A stretch of 64,000 bases of DNA from Enhydrobacter aerosaccus (GTDB taxonomy: Bacteria; Pseudomonadota; Alphaproteobacteria; Reyranellales; Reyranellaceae). The number at the start of each line of letters is the position of its first letter. The first letter of the stretch is position 1. Below the pieces are notes generated by a model. The model saw only the letters and a list, made by a program, of their open reading frames with translations. It ran no database searches and was not told where the DNA came from. Positions 42,762 through 49,434 of this stretch are shown in pieces. The position numbers and the translations under genes are program-made. The stretch covers positions 1 to 64,000 of the forward strand of contig NZ_FUWJ01000019.1 in NCBI RefSeq assembly GCF_900167455.1, read 5' to 3'.

Positions 42762-43319
42762 CTAGTCGATCATGCCCCGCGCAATGGAAGCGGCTTCGGC
42801 GGCGGGTTCTTCGCCAGGATAGACAGGAATGATGCGCAGCCCTTCGGGCGCGCGCTCGACCACGCGTCGAATGGCGGCGAGGTGCGCGCCCGGCGTAGGC
42901 CAGCCCAAGCGGTCGGCATCCTCCTGCGTTCGGGAAAGCCTGATGACAATCTCGCGCGGGTCCTCGCCGTACTCCGCCACCAGCTTGCGGATAAGCGCCA
43001 ACTGCTCCTCGGCGGCGCGATCCTGCTGGTCGCACAAGGTTTGGAGCTTCTGCCAATGGTGCGCCGGGATCTCGAACTCACCGGAAAGCCAGCGCCGCAC
43101 AACGCGCTGCTCGGTCGGCTCGCCGGTCGAGGGGCTAATAAGAAAGACGCCGGCATCGGCCGCGCTTAGCCCGCAACGATGCAGTTCATGATGCCCTCCT
43201 CTGGTCGGTGCGGGCGATGCGATGGTGCATGTGCCGGCGCGCTCCCTCGCGGAGCGAAGGGCACGGCGCACTGCGGCGGCATCGTCTGACCGGAACGGCA
43301 GGATAGAGATGGAGGTCAT
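42762..43319 (-). CDS. HTH-domain protein, N-terminus possibly fused by frameshift
   Basis: An open frame of 185 codons. From about residue 48 it reads LHRCGLSAADAGVFLISPSTGEPTEQRVVRRWLSGEFEIPAHHWQKLQTLCDQQDRAAEEQLALIRKLV, a DUF1870/HTH-like arrangement seen in small ICE proteins, and ends with a region resembling PTPGAHLAAIRRVVERAPEGLRIIPVYPGEE. The first 40 codons instead match a different small ICE protein (see 43186-43319). There is no in-frame ATG directly before the HTH part, so the native start is lost or non-standard. Confidence 0.55.
   Translation of the reverse strand: MTSISILPFRSDDAAAVRRALRSARERAGTCTIASPAPTRGGHHELHRCGLSAADAGVFLISPSTGEPTEQRVVRRWLSGEFEIPAHHWQKLQTLCDQQDRAAEEQLALIRKLVAEYGEDPREIVIRLSRTQEDADRLGWPTPGAHLAAIRRVVERAPEGLRIIPVYPGEEPAAEAASIARGMID
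43186..43319 (-). pseudogene. Frameshifted paralogue of the 47363-47572 small gene
   Basis: Starting at ATG 43319, SDDAAAVRRALRSA matches SPKAAAAVRRALRSA of the intact 69-residue gene at 47363-47572. The continuation EGARRHMHHRIARTDQRRAS is found in the next frame and ends in TGA at 43186, overlapping an ATG (ATGA) as in the intact copy. Loss of one G near TCCGCGAGGGAG (about 43255) explains the shift. Confidence 0.6.
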
Positions 43320-45612: not shown

Positions 45613-45771
45613 CTTCAGAATGCGATGGGGATGGAAGCCCGAAGGGCGGAGACCGGCGCAGCCGGGCTCCGTTCACGACAGCCCGGGCCGGCGCGCGCGC
45701 CGGTATCGCCCGAGGGCGGACGATCCTACGACAGCGGTTCGTCCTCCGGCCACTCAACGCCGGTTTCGGCC

Positions 45772-45791
45772 TTATGCGGCGCACCGCATAA
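45772..45791. other. 20-bp palindrome beside the left inverted repeat
   Basis: TTATGCGG (45772-45779) and CCGCATAA (45784-45791) are perfect arms around a 4-bp centre CGCA. The arm matches the ATTATGCGG motif repeated inside the flanking 90-bp inverted repeats. The layout (inverted 8-bp arms around a short centre) is that of a tyrosine-recombinase core site. Confidence 0.5.
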
Positions 45792-45795
45792 CACC

Positions 45796-45885
45796 GATTA
45801 TGTGTAGCAGGTGATTATGCCAAGTCTGGTGGCGAGAGTGTCAGTTTTCCGCCGCCTTTGTCGTCCTCGCGCTCCACATAATATC
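45796..45885. repeat. Left 90-bp terminal inverted repeat of a 1.17-kb cassette
   Basis: Aligned without gaps to the reverse complement of 46873-46962, about 71 of 90 bases match. The outer end begins GATTATG and the inner end is CGCTCCACATAATATC. Three ATTATG-type motifs (two direct, one inverted) can be seen in each copy. Confidence 0.8.
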
Positions 45886-46096
45886 GTAGCCTTAGCCGAA
45901 GCGGCATCGCCGTAAACGGCTCGTGAGCTTGATAGCGAGAAGGTGGCCTGCTAATGCTGCGGCCTGGCACGGCCCGTGCCTCCCCCCACCGTTGGGGAAG
46001 CATACGACATGCGGGGCGTCCTGTTTTTCGAACCATCCCGTTCGAGCATGCGCATAAGGTGGGATTGCGAACATCGCTCGAAAGAGGAGGTTCTCA

Positions 46097-46810
46097 ATGA
46101 AGCTATCTGCTCCAATCTTCAAGCTGAAGCGCCAGGCCAAGTTGCTTGCGCGCGAGTCCGACATTCCACTTCATGCAGCCCTTGATCAGACGGCCCGAAA
46201 TGAGGGCTTTCGTGCCTGGAGTCATCTCGCGGCATCCGCATCCGACCATAGGCCGGCACATGAAATGCTGGCGCAGCTCAGTCCGGGTGATCTGGTGCTG
46301 CTGGGCGCGCGGCCCGGCCACGGCAAAACGCTCATGGGCCTCGAACTCGCTATCGAGGCCGTCCGAACCGATCGATCGGCCTTCTTCTTCACCCTCGAAG
46401 ACAATGAAGGCGTCGTGTTCGATCGACTTCAGATGCTTGGTACTGACAGGAAAGTGGTCGAGGCCAAGCTGACCGTCGATACATCCGACGACATCTGCGC
46501 CGACTACATAATCGATCGGATCGGCCATGGGAGCTCCGGCGCCTTAGCGATCATCGACTATCTTCAGCTGCTGGACCAGCGACGCCGCAATCCGGAACTC
46601 GATGTCCAGATGAAGGCGCTGAGGACGTTCGCGAGCGCGACAGGGTCGATCATAGTGGCGCTGTCACAGATCGATCGGGCCTTCGAAACGACAGGTAGAA
46701 GCATCCCCGGACTGGAGGATATCCGCTTGCCCAATCCTCTCGACATGAGCCTCTTCACAAAGGCCTGCTTCATGCACGGCGGCGAAGCTCATCTTGAGAA
46801 AATAGCCTGA
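46097..46810 (+). CDS. DnaB-like helicase C-terminal domain ATPase
   Basis: A 237-residue RecA-fold ATPase. Residues 1-55 form a small helical N-terminal region (LKRQAKLLARESDIPLHAALDQTARNEGF.AWSHL). The ATPase part has Walker A GARPGHGKT (near residue 75), FFFTLEDNEG, Walker B LAIIDYLQLLDQ and the DnaB-type IIVALSQIDRAFE. It lacks the DnaB N-terminal primase-binding domain, so it is about half the size of DnaB. GAGGAGG lies upstream of the ATG. The gene is the only one inside the inverted-repeat cassette 45796-46962. Role unknown. Confidence 0.8.
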   Translation: MKLSAPIFKLKRQAKLLARESDIPLHAALDQTARNEGFRAWSHLAASASDHRPAHEMLAQLSPGDLVLLGARPGHGKTLMGLELAIEAVRTDRSAFFFTLEDNEGVVFDRLQMLGTDRKVVEAKLTVDTSDDICADYIIDRIGHGSSGALAIIDYLQLLDQRRRNPELDVQMKALRTFASATGSIIVALSQIDRAFETTGRSIPGLEDIRLPNPLDMSLFTKACFMHGGEAHLEKIA

Positions 46811-46872
46811 AGCCTTCGATGTAGAAGCCCGCGGCGCCCCGCCACCCGGCGAGGCGCCGCGGCACCACCACT

Positions 46873-46962
46873 GATATTATGTGGAGCGCGAACAAGGCAA
46901 AAGCGGCGGACAACCGCCACTCCTCACACCCAACTCCGCATAATCACGCGCTACGCATAATC
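46873..46962. repeat. Right 90-bp terminal inverted repeat of the cassette
   Basis: Reverse-complement partner of 45796-45885. The outer end is CTACGCATAATC. It overlaps the 3' end of the 46951-47178 gene and supplies its last codons and stop. No target-site duplication is evident on comparing 45786-45795 with 46963-46972. Confidence 0.8.
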
Positions 46963-47178
46963 AGCGGCACGCTGCGCTTGCTTCAGCAGACGGAACTTGC
47001 GGGTAAACGATCGGGCGATGACGTAGTACGGCCGAAGCGCGGTCATGTGCCCGCAGTGATGCACTGCGATGCCGGGGAGCTGCGGCGAGGTCCATAGCAT
47101 GTTGAGCTCACGCCCGAGCTTGTCGCCGATCCGGATCACCGGACCGGCGGACGAAACCTTGTGAAGGGGCTGACCCAT
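46951..47178 (-). CDS. Small hypothetical protein, tail within the inverted repeat
   Basis: A 75-residue protein with LHKVSSAGPVIRIGDKLGRELNMLW and a C-terminal basic helix (RSFTRKFRLLKQAQRAADYA). The ATG shares one base with the upstream TGA. The final D-Y-A-stop codons come from the terminal GATTATGCGTAG of the right inverted repeat, so the original C-terminus may have been lost. It is last in a four-gene cluster. Confidence 0.55.
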   Translation of the reverse strand: MGQPLHKVSSAGPVIRIGDKLGRELNMLWTSPQLPGIAVHHCGHMTALRPYYVIARSFTRKFRLLKQAQRAADYA

Positions 47179-47366
47179 CAGAACACCTGCCTTTCGATAT
47201 CCTCGGCGATCTCCTTCGCCTCGGCCGCCATGCGCTGAAACTCAGCAGTGGTGCGCCGAAGATGCGCGGTTTCCTTGGCGTCCGGTTCATAGACCTGGGC
47301 GGCCACTCCCAGGTGATGCACGGCGGCAACCGCCGTGCTGAGTGACGCAAAGCGATAGGAGGTCAT
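47178..47366 (-). CDS. Small helical hypothetical protein
   Basis: A 62-residue protein; its ATG overlaps the upstream stop (ATGA). It is mostly helical and charged in the second half (HLRRTTAEFQRMAAEAKEIAEDIERQVF), suggesting a coiled coil. No family is recognised. It belongs to the 46951-47826 cluster of overlapping small genes. Confidence 0.6.
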   Translation of the reverse strand: MTSYRFASLSTAVAAVHHLGVAAQVYEPDAKETAHLRRTTAEFQRMAAEAKEIAEDIERQVF

Positions 47367-47572
47367 GACGCACCTCTCTCACCCGAGCGTGCAACGCGAT
47401 GGTCCATGTGCCGGCGTGCCCCTTCGGCGGAGCGAAGGGCACGGCGAACGGCGGCCGCGGCCTTGGGCGACGCGGTCTGCACCAGCACCGCGCGCGCCCG
47501 TCTCAAGTCATCGATGGCCTGCGCGATGAGCTTGGCGCCCTCCACCGGCGCCGATCGGATCGGCCGGCTCAT
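47363..47572 (-). CDS. Small hypothetical protein (intact paralogue)
   Basis: A 69-residue basic protein with AKLIAQAIDDLRRARAVLVQT and AAAAVRRALRSAEGARRHMDHRVAR. The ATG overlaps the stop of the 47569-47826 gene. A frameshifted relative is at 43186-43319. The Arg-rich helical character could allow nucleic-acid or protein binding; no function is known. Confidence 0.6.
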   Translation of the reverse strand: MSRPIRSAPVEGAKLIAQAIDDLRRARAVLVQTASPKAAAAVRRALRSAEGARRHMDHRVARSGERGAS

Positions 47573-47826
47573 GTCAGGCCCTCCTCGCTGGCAAGCGCGC
47601 GTGCCGGCGCGAAGCCGATGAACTGACCGGCGCAATGCGCCAGCTCGTCCCAGTCGCCGATGGTGTCGCGGCAGAAGATGCGATAGCCGGGATGGAGCGA
47701 GTTGATTTCGCAGCACACGGCCTCGGCATCGTTGGTGACGGAGCGGGGACCGTCCTGGTCCTCGATCCACACGCGGCGCCGGTCGTGATCGATCCGGCGA
47801 TAGATGAATTGCGCAAGCACGCGCAT
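47569..47826 (-). CDS. Small hypothetical protein next to parB
   Basis: An 85-residue protein with FIYRRIDHDRRRVWIEDQDGPRSVTNDAEAVCCEI and YRIFCRDTIGDWDELAHCAGQFIGFAP. Similar short proteins accompany parB/ardC genes on alphaproteobacterial plasmids and ICEs. It is first of four overlapping genes and lies 75 bases downstream of parB; that gap holds GCAGGCC/GGCCTGC arms (47866-47894) without a T-run. Confidence 0.6.
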   Translation of the reverse strand: MRVLAQFIYRRIDHDRRRVWIEDQDGPRSVTNDAEAVCCEINSLHPGYRIFCRDTIGDWDELAHCAGQFIGFAPARALASEEGLT

Positions 47827-47901
47827 GACAACTCTCCGATGTTGACGACTGAGAAGGGAGGGGAGGCAGGCCCCGGCGCTCGGCCGAGGCCTGCGGCTGA
47901 G

Positions 47902-49434
47902 TTAGTCGCGCTTCAAGGGCACGACCGATGCAGCGCCCTCGTGCTGGGCGATGCGCTCGACCAGCTCGCGCTTCTTCAAGCCGGCGCTGTCGATCTTGAG
48001 TTGCTTCGCAAGGTCCTGCAGGGCGTCGAGCCGATACCGCCGCAGAAAGCCGGTGTCGTAGCGGAACCATGTCGTCCCGCTGGCCTTCAACTCCTTCACC
48101 GCCTCGTCGTTCGGACTATAGAGAAGCGTGAGCGAGCGAAGCGCGGCTGCCCGGACAAACTCCATCACCTTATCCCAAGGCATCTTCTCGAACGCTGCTC
48201 GGCTCGGGAATGGCGTCTCTGCCACTTCCGGCAACTCGACCTTGGTATCGAACATCACGTTGACGCCGATGAAGTTGGGAAAGGACGGGCGCACCCCGGC
48301 CCACGCGGGATGCGATAGGACTTCGCCCAACATCGGGGAAAGCAAGGTCTTGAGCGCGAGCCACGTATCGCCATTGGCGATTGCGCGGGCGAGAGCTTCG
48401 GTCTGGAGTGCGCCGAGCATTTCAACCTGCGACTTGCTCAAGTCGTAAAGGGTCTGCGCCTTCACCTCCTCGGCATCGGCGCTGTCGTCCTTCGGATGCT
48501 TGCCCTTTTTGGCCTTCTTGGCTTCTTGGCGCGTGATCCAACCGCGCTCGATCTTCACCTCGCCCGACGCGGGGTTGTAGATGACGAAGGCGTGCATGCT
48601 GGCGCGCTTGGCCTTGCCGATCTTGCCCTCAACCCGGACGTAGCTGTCCCAGAGGTAAGGTTGGCCTTCCAACAGCTCGACCGCACCCCAGCCCTCGGAC
48701 TGAAGCGATTCGACATCAAGTTGCAGATGCTCGCGTTGCAGGCGGTCGAAGGCCTCGCGGTCCGTCAGCCAGATTTCTTCACCGAACAGATCGCGCGTAA
48801 CGGCGGAAGCCGGATACTTGTCGAGGTCGAAGATCGCGAAGTGCGAGGGAATGGCTTGATTGGTCAAGGCACGTCGGATTTCCGCAGCGTTCAACTGCCA
48901 CTCTGTGCGGACAGACTTGAGATAGGTGTCCTGCTGGCTCTTGGTGCTGAGCGTGAAGGCCTCGGCGGCTGCGAGCGTGATGTCGCCGGCCCGGAACACC
49001 TTCTTGGCCTTGTCGGACAGGCCGTCGAGCTTCAAGCGCTGCTCGGCCCACCGAGCCGGATGACCGAACCGAGCGGCCACATTCTCCGCCGTGTCGCCAT
49101 CAGCAATCGCGCGGGCGATGACCCGCGCCTCGTCGAGCGGATGCATCGGTGCCCGCATCATGTTGGCGACGGTGCCCAGCTCGTCGCCGGCAATGCTGCC
49201 AGCGTAAACGTCGCCCTCCAGCCCCAAGAGACCGGCTTCCTTCGCAGCGGCAAAGCGGCGGCCGCCGTCGATGATCTCGTAATGATCGGGCTTGCCGTTT
49301 GCGCGAATGATGATCGGCACGAGCTGGCCGTGGGCTCTCATCGAGGCGACAAGCCGGTCATGCGCGGCCTTCTCGGCCGGCGTCGTACGTGGGTTCTCGG
49401 CAGCGACAGACAGCTTTGAGATTTCAATAAACAT
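47902..49434 (-). CDS. parB: ParB/RepB/Spo0J family nuclease-domain protein
   Basis: A 510-residue ParB-like protein starting at ATG 49434 (MFIEISKLS) after GGAGAAC. The N-terminal ParB domain is clear: ISKLSVAAENPRTTPAEKAAHDRLVASMRAHGQLVPIIIRANG, YEIIDGGRRFAAAKEAG. The HTH follows (NVAARFGHPARWAEQRLKLDGLSDKAK). The remaining 300 residues are an extended family-specific domain ending in a helix-rich tail (LDALQDLAKQLKIDSAGLKKRELVERI). There is no parA nearby, so classical partition is unlikely; ICE ParB proteins may act in establishment or gene control. Confidence 0.86.
   Translation of the reverse strand: MFIEISKLSVAAENPRTTPAEKAAHDRLVASMRAHGQLVPIIIRANGKPDHYEIIDGGRRFAAAKEAGLLGLEGDVYAGSIAGDELGTVANMMRAPMHPLDEARVIARAIADGDTAENVAARFGHPARWAEQRLKLDGLSDKAKKVFRAGDITLAAAEAFTLSTKSQQDTYLKSVRTEWQLNAAEIRRALTNQAIPSHFAIFDLDKYPASAVTRDLFGEEIWLTDREAFDRLQREHLQLDVESLQSEGWGAVELLEGQPYLWDSYVRVEGKIGKAKRASMHAFVIYNPASGEVKIERGWITRQEAKKAKKGKHPKDDSADAEEVKAQTLYDLSKSQVEMLGALQTEALARAIANGDTWLALKTLLSPMLGEVLSHPAWAGVRPSFPNFIGVNVMFDTKVELPEVAETPFPSRAAFEKMPWDKVMEFVRAAALRSLTLLYSPNDEAVKELKASGTTWFRYDTGFLRRYRLDALQDLAKQLKIDSAGLKKRELVERIAQHEGAASVVPLKRD

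Follow-up and report, generated by a model that had tools for sequence, protein, structure and literature searches.

Between long inverted arms in the window analysed here (the whole 64-kb stretch of Enhydrobacter aerosaccus DNA) lies a single DnaB-like ATPase gene, which raises the question of what sort of mobile unit could carry such a passenger and no recombinase. The preliminary description of this locus had proposed a 1167-bp cassette bounded by 90-bp gapless inverted repeats, and its account of the arms agrees with our data: 45796-45885 and the reverse complement of 46873-46962 are identical, without gaps, at 71 of 90 positions, compared with a mean of 24 and a maximum of 46 for 200,000 inverted 90-mer pairs drawn at random from the window, and a BLAST alignment of arm against arm has an E-value of 3e-15 on the scale of the whole genome and 4e-17 within 2.5 kb of the gene. 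Both arms also have the three-motif layout that had been noticed, with two direct outer TTATG motifs at a period of 17 bp and one inner inverted CATAA, spanning 84 bp from the first to the last motif letter in either arm (hereafter END). TTATG-N12-TTATG is exact at both ends of the unit, and the two arms hold the sole occurrences of the outer double motif in the window. As had been stated, the unit contains one gene (46097-46810). The proposed limits, by contrast, had to be moved, since the recognisable arm ends are 45798 and 46960; because a perfect 20-bp palindrome (PAL) found 6 bp outside the left END is counted as part of that end, the unit extends over 45772-46960 (1189 bp), and a structured leader, absent from the first account, precedes the gene (Table 1). 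The outer side of the right END carries no palindrome. A BLAST search of the whole genome detected no second copy of the unit, a promoter scan found no promoter, and a terminator scan made no call at the hairpin that follows the gene. Rfam matches in the arms scored below the gathering threshold and were dismissed.

Table 1. Features of the unit and of its insertion site, in window positions (L numbers designate compared loci).
Feature	Position	Strand	Basis or remark
Presumed C-terminal tail of the interrupted ORF (..ETGVEWPEDEPLS stop)	45726..45765	-	In frame once the flanks are joined over one 6-mer
Outer 6-mer Z6, TCGGCC (GGCCGA on the host-gene strand)	45766..45771		Target side of PAL; position set by comparison with L044, L060 and L123
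PAL, TTATGCGGCGCACCGCATAA, part of RIT-type end	45772..45791		Palindrome in the same position beside END in L023, L036/L039, L038, L044, L059, L060 and L063
Inner 6-mer Y6, CACCGA	45792..45797		Between PAL and END; same 6-bp spacing at other PAL-bearing ends
Left END, TTATG-N12-TTATG ... CTCCACATAA, 84 bp	45798..45881	+	BLAST and motif layout
Structured RNA leader, predicted, reaching the start codon	45958..46100	+	Match to model R1, 145.9 bits; the window is one of the 14 sequences from which R1 was built
DnaB-family ATPase, 237 aa, PRK05973/NF004629	46097..46810	+	Profile matches
G+C-rich hairpin 3' of the gene	46829..46862		Inverted repeat; terminator-like stem without T-run; shared with L009, whose homology ends at 46862
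Right END, 84 bp, inverted copy of the left END	46877..46960	-	BLAST and motif layout
6-mer X6, TCAGCG (CGCTGA on the host-gene strand)	46961..46966		Between right END and host gene
N-terminal part of the interrupted small ORF (MGQPLHKV...QRAA)	46967..47178	-	Reading frame

The arms had been compared with those of recombinase-in-trio (RIT) elements, reportedly the subject of Van Houdt et al. (2009) and Ricker et al. (2013), and this comparison turned out to be apt. The same arrangement of motifs is found around rit genes on plasmids of Microvirga, Sinorhizobium and Bradyrhizobium, on pHG1 and in viral contigs; longer relatives with recombinase genes, which the preliminary description had suggested looking for, do exist, with ritABC between the same ENDs. 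TTATG-N12-TTATG occurs exactly on both sides at eight of 12 Rit-bearing loci, on one side at three, and on neither side within 900 bp at one (L021), whose END lies just further out; several of these loci are incomplete or interrupted by another element, and most were found via their ENDs, which makes the association partly one of construction. Two of the 12 were found independently of the ENDs: the second RIT of L022/L032, whose trio has the motif at both ends, and pHG1 (L078), with two inverted, incomplete copies that have the motif beyond their ritA and an inner trio between them at which the scan did not find it. PMC2864759 reports >92% identity between ritA and ritB of pHG1 and those of the C. 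metallidurans CH34 element; on our reading, the L078 genes are the ones meant. Microvirga sp. VF16 carries two ritABC elements with identical recombinases and an END on both sides of each (two of the eight loci above). When plasmids were searched with the unit, those of Aminobacter, Bradyrhizobium and Rhizobium turned out to have this END next to DUF736 genes, with one to three annotated tyrosine recombinases within a few kb; in a genome of the same genus an END stands immediately after a ritC-like gene. An 83-bp END adjoins ritC in G029.

Viral contigs provided 41 loci found by END patterns, eight of them with convergent END pairs 3.43-3.50 kb apart, and RitA, RitB and RitC homologues lie inside all eight. 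These pairs fit the RIT size and repeat reported in PMC3414803 (about 3,500 bp, with a 28-29 bp inverted repeat and an overlapping palindrome); PMC10214605 gives terminal inverted repeats of 34 bp. Among the other 33 viral loci, two have part of ritC by a single END (L102 and L114), two hold a gene-less derivative (L100 and L123), and the rest have one END, mostly partnerless in the stretch examined. Three of the eight trios are, as a guess from their sequences, clostridial-looking: L112, L115 and L117 are RIT trios with the same END layout on contigs with clostridial-looking proteins (judged by eye), and RIT ends may therefore be conserved across a wide host range. The END pattern matched three of 76 genomes of the order (control, 0), and among 385 genomes of the class it matched the own genome only, the reversed control pattern also having one match. 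Confinement of the repeats to this locus, which the preliminary description had named as a refutation, was not observed: ENDs occur at rit loci, and decayed arms accompany the same cargo in L010 (see below). RITs at DUF736 genes (L020, L021 and L022) show a further peculiarity, namely additional DUF736 copies, complete or partial, within the ENDs or next to them: inverted copies surround the trio of L020 (1521-2120 and 5404-6003, 99.7% identical over 600 bp), and a palindrome lies between two C-terminal halves of DUF736 in L022 (4669-5130).

Insertions into known genes place the palindrome relative to the target. In two Microvirga RITs (L044 and L063) IS66 tnpB is interrupted at the same codons (by eye) in opposite orientations, and both times PAL is on the C-terminal tnpB side. 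PAL also lies on the C-terminal side of the interrupted DUF736 gene in L023, the N-terminal side of DUF736 stands directly at END in L021 and L022 (and, by eye, in L020), and the window has PAL on what is presumably the C-terminal side of the host ORF. A simple polarity rule does not predict what is seen in L043 and L064, where no palindrome is present and each END adjoins the N-terminal side of a different tnpB gene (L064, 4956-5024 and 8370-8438; L043, 19960-20033 and 23076-23160), an arrangement that probably arose by rearrangement, perhaps when one insertion recombined with another.

The 6-mers X6 and Z6 agree at four of six positions in the window and in L063, five in L044, two in L059 and all six in L060 and L123 (by eye). 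Empty sites, which the preliminary description had recommended looking for, were recovered with a single 6-mer for L123 and L060, and none was recovered for the window's own site. A degenerate pattern laid across the junction predicted for the gene-less mini-RIT L123 matched 119 viral-contig stretches, and 78 of 80 fetched stretches match both 300-bp flanks, 77 of them sharing a single 6-mer; with the full RIT L060 both flanks matched in 10, all with a single shared 6-mer, and for L059, which has two differing 6-mers, both flanks matched in 74 contigs, 24 of which have one-6-mer spacing; as these contigs were picked by a junction-spanning pattern, the spacing counts are partly a matter of construction and their weight lies in the existence of such sites with matching flanks. 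L100 and L123 have identical sequence and were counted once (L100:1252-1372 equals L123:3553-3673, a 121-bp gene-less RIT derivative in a viral contig, with a palindrome and an exact 6-bp flanking repeat); their target region is that of the full RITs L059 and L060 and probably also that of the END of L062. In SE elements (strand-biased circularizing integrative elements), one of the two 6-mers derives from the donor site, according to PMC10214605, and the 6-mer mismatch in the window is compatible with an SE-like mechanism because the donor would supply one of the two.

At the insertion site itself, a minus-strand ORF reads into the right END, and when the flanks are joined over one 6-mer the frame continues as ...QRAAETGVEWPEDEPLS up to a stop. 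This junction is modest evidence that the unit would be an insertion inside a small ORF. The joined 85-aa ORF had no match in plasmids at 1e-5, matched itself only in the 385 class genomes at 0.001, and below 0.01 matched just its own two halves in the 76 order genomes. Against viral contigs it detected three loci (L088-L090) with 37-58% identity over part of its length, none across the junction; these distant partial relatives of the N-terminal part, with HCxHMTALRPYY, suggest that the host ORF is a real gene. The neighbouring DNA at 46970-48970 had no plasmid match, and 46970-47900 gave 14 matches in 12 of the 76 order genomes, of which one was the query, one lay on its own contig and 12 were short. 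The unit lies among genes of a conjugative element, with a MobA/MobL relaxase, ParB and ArdC. On either side of it, 43147-43280 and about 47320-47458 match each other at 76%, a sign that the conjugative region was partly duplicated.

The cargo matches NF004629/PRK05973 with 340 bits (cut-off 156) over residues 1-235 of 237 and also Pfam DnaB_C, and the solved structures scoring best by sequence are DnaB helicases. We take GARPGHGKT to be its Walker A and LAIIDYLQLLD its Walker-B-like motif. A literature search for PRK05973 found no paper. In Sphingomonas (L009) the region 45900-46862 is present with 91% identical DNA but no arms, and a DUF736 gene lies downstream of the module at a distance of about 0.6 kb. 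The arms are therefore not fixed flanks of the gene; had they been so, in unrelated, vertically inherited loci, the idea of a mobile cassette would have been refuted. In Sphingobium subterraneum (L010, a 1.4-Mb contig), 45971-46882 is found at 85% identity between decayed arms, swapped relative to the gene, at an unrelated site. Since L009 is armless and L010 armed, the module also exists outside arms, and its armed form occurs at two unrelated sites. A cobalamin riboswitch near the Roseovarius PRK05973 locus (L012:5055-5244) is unrelated to the leader described next.

About 140 nt upstream of the start codon are kept in 14 aligned loci (143 nt in the window), and RNAalifold predicts covarying helices in the aligned leaders. 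A model built on them matched 13 of the 385 class genomes, 11 strongly, the own genome included, and all 11 strong matches lead into a PRK05973-type ORF (by eye); two weak matches (G267 and G296), without PRK05973 downstream, were left out of the alignment. Among the 76 order genomes the leader occurs in the own genome only, which points to horizontal gain. In the covariation alignment (24 sequences, 14 of them used for model building), 95.4% of cells pair and nine of 27 pairs changed on both sides; among 500 shuffles, these values were reached by none for paired cells and one for two-sided changes, and by none for the covariation score and eight for pair types, and in slid controls pairing falls to 25-44%. 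A predicted loop-loop pseudoknot (columns 32-34 with 111-113) pairs in all 24 sequences; its coordinated change, seen in three related sequences (window, L009 and L010), is probably one event. Rfam contains no match to the window leader at E up to 5, nor a leader match at gathering score for nine related loci. We take this leader to be a cis-regulatory RNA and, with its relatives in L009-L016, L024-L028 and L066-L075, a candidate new RNA family. In L024 (5123-5557) it precedes a different 145-aa ORF, without Pfam match, whose product has in common with PRK05973 only an N-terminal LKRxAKxLSR-like motif (by eye).

RitA, RitB and RitC had no tblastn match in the window at 1e-8, and RitB of L044 had none in the genome at 1e-10. 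RitC gave two genomic matches, of 39% and 35% identity, similar to low matches in two comparison genomes (the positive control, G029, gives 77%); judging by its neighbours, the first is presumably XerD-like. At some Rit-bearing loci RitC is just 32-42% identical to the query, so a divergent RIT elsewhere in the genome is possible. The unit thus has RIT-type inverted repeats and an end-adjoining palindrome around a single gene in place of ritA-ritB-ritC; because ritABC are missing and these end features are present, we regard it as a non-autonomous RIT-type element and not as a RIT.

From these comparisons of sequences, 45772-46960 is quite likely a non-autonomous RIT-ended element in which ritABC have been replaced by the PRK05973 ATPase and its leader and which would be moved in trans, probably depending on recombinases made elsewhere. 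The two ENDs and PAL would be putative binding and crossover sites for tyrosine recombinases of the RitA/RitB/RitC type. Supplied by another RIT, these would join both ENDs into a circle with the junction END-6 bp-PAL-6 bp-END, and the circle would recombine with the target 6-mer through one or other of its two 6-bp crossover regions, after which the target would read X6-END...END-Y6-PAL-Z6. We infer the circle and the polarity of insertion from the anatomy of the ends; as the junction is palindromic as a whole, either half should be usable.

The unit might instead never have moved as such, a full RIT having inserted and lost ritABC in place before the PRK05973 module entered by ordinary recombination; a RIT emptied and refilled in this way would have the same appearance. 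This history, which we consider possible though clearly less probable, is favoured by the armless module of L009 (leader, gene and hairpin), since the nearby DUF736 gene, of a kind that is a RIT target in L021-L023, offers a possible meeting point, and by the gene-less remnant L123, which shows that RIT interiors get lost. L010 speaks against it, as the same cargo with related arms elsewhere needs at least one joint move or two similar replacements. It is about as doubtful that the element is dead, its arms and cargo a fossil in which selection keeps the gene and leader only, although such a fate would be compatible with an origin as a non-autonomous RIT-ended element. The single copy in the genome, the lack of a clear RIT recombinase in this genome by the RitB and RitC searches and the decayed arms of L010 agree with a fossil, but both ENDs match the motif pattern in every letter (0 mismatches), the palindrome is perfect and the ORF intact.

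DnaB-family proteins are often encoded near replication origins, and arms flanking such a gene could be iteron-like regulatory or replication sites and not mobile ends. We consider this very improbable, because the same ENDs flank recombinase genes and because BLAST of upstream against downstream flanks detected arms at none of 12 other PRK05973 loci, a comparison that gave one 18-bp match in L009 (E 0.018), missed the decayed arms of L010 and had just 226 bp upstream in L015. The iteron or origin reading was dropped for want of arms at these loci.

As a non-autonomous RIT-ended element, the unit resembles RITs in END layout, inverted arrangement and a palindrome adjoining an end, and differs from them in the lack of ritA, ritB and ritC, in its 1.19 kb, in its PRK05973 ATPase with an RNA leader, and in 84-bp arms with a third, inner motif. 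The mini-RIT L100/L123 has the same END, 6-mer and PAL and likewise no recombinase, but it is cargo-free, measures 121 bp from END to PAL, has a truncated second END and is flanked by an exact 6-bp repeat. Integron gene cassettes are recombinase-less units recognised by a tyrosine recombinase, to which the unit would be analogous in this respect, although a cassette has a single attC and the unit two inverted ENDs and a palindrome. SE, GInt and Tn554 elements, as described in PMC10214605, combine a 6-bp crossover spacer and end-adjacent 6-mers that may differ with target specificity; by this description the unit would share the 6-bp spacer and the non-identical 6-mers, whereas those elements encode their own recombinases and the unit none. 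Among the papers that literature searches on RIT elements and on non-autonomous or in-trans forms retrieved, no title or opening of an abstract describes a RIT without recombinases.

Being compact, complete at its ends and devoid of a recombinase, the unit is a ready substrate on which to test RitABC in trans, and its anatomy (END, 6 bp, palindrome, 6-bp target and orientation rule) leads to concrete predictions on the crossover and on the junction of the circle. As a candidate family testable in its own right, the leader RNA predicts that a mini-DnaB ATPase is regulated in about 3% of the sampled genomes of the class (strong matches in 11 of 385). More speculatively, RIT ends might form a general platform for trans-mobilisation, with circles of palindromic junction inserting recombinase-less modules and the mini-DnaB with its pseudoknotted leader as a self-regulated passenger exchanged by conjugative elements. 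If this were true, genes of plasmids, ICEs, phages and IS66 would receive such modules at fixed codons.
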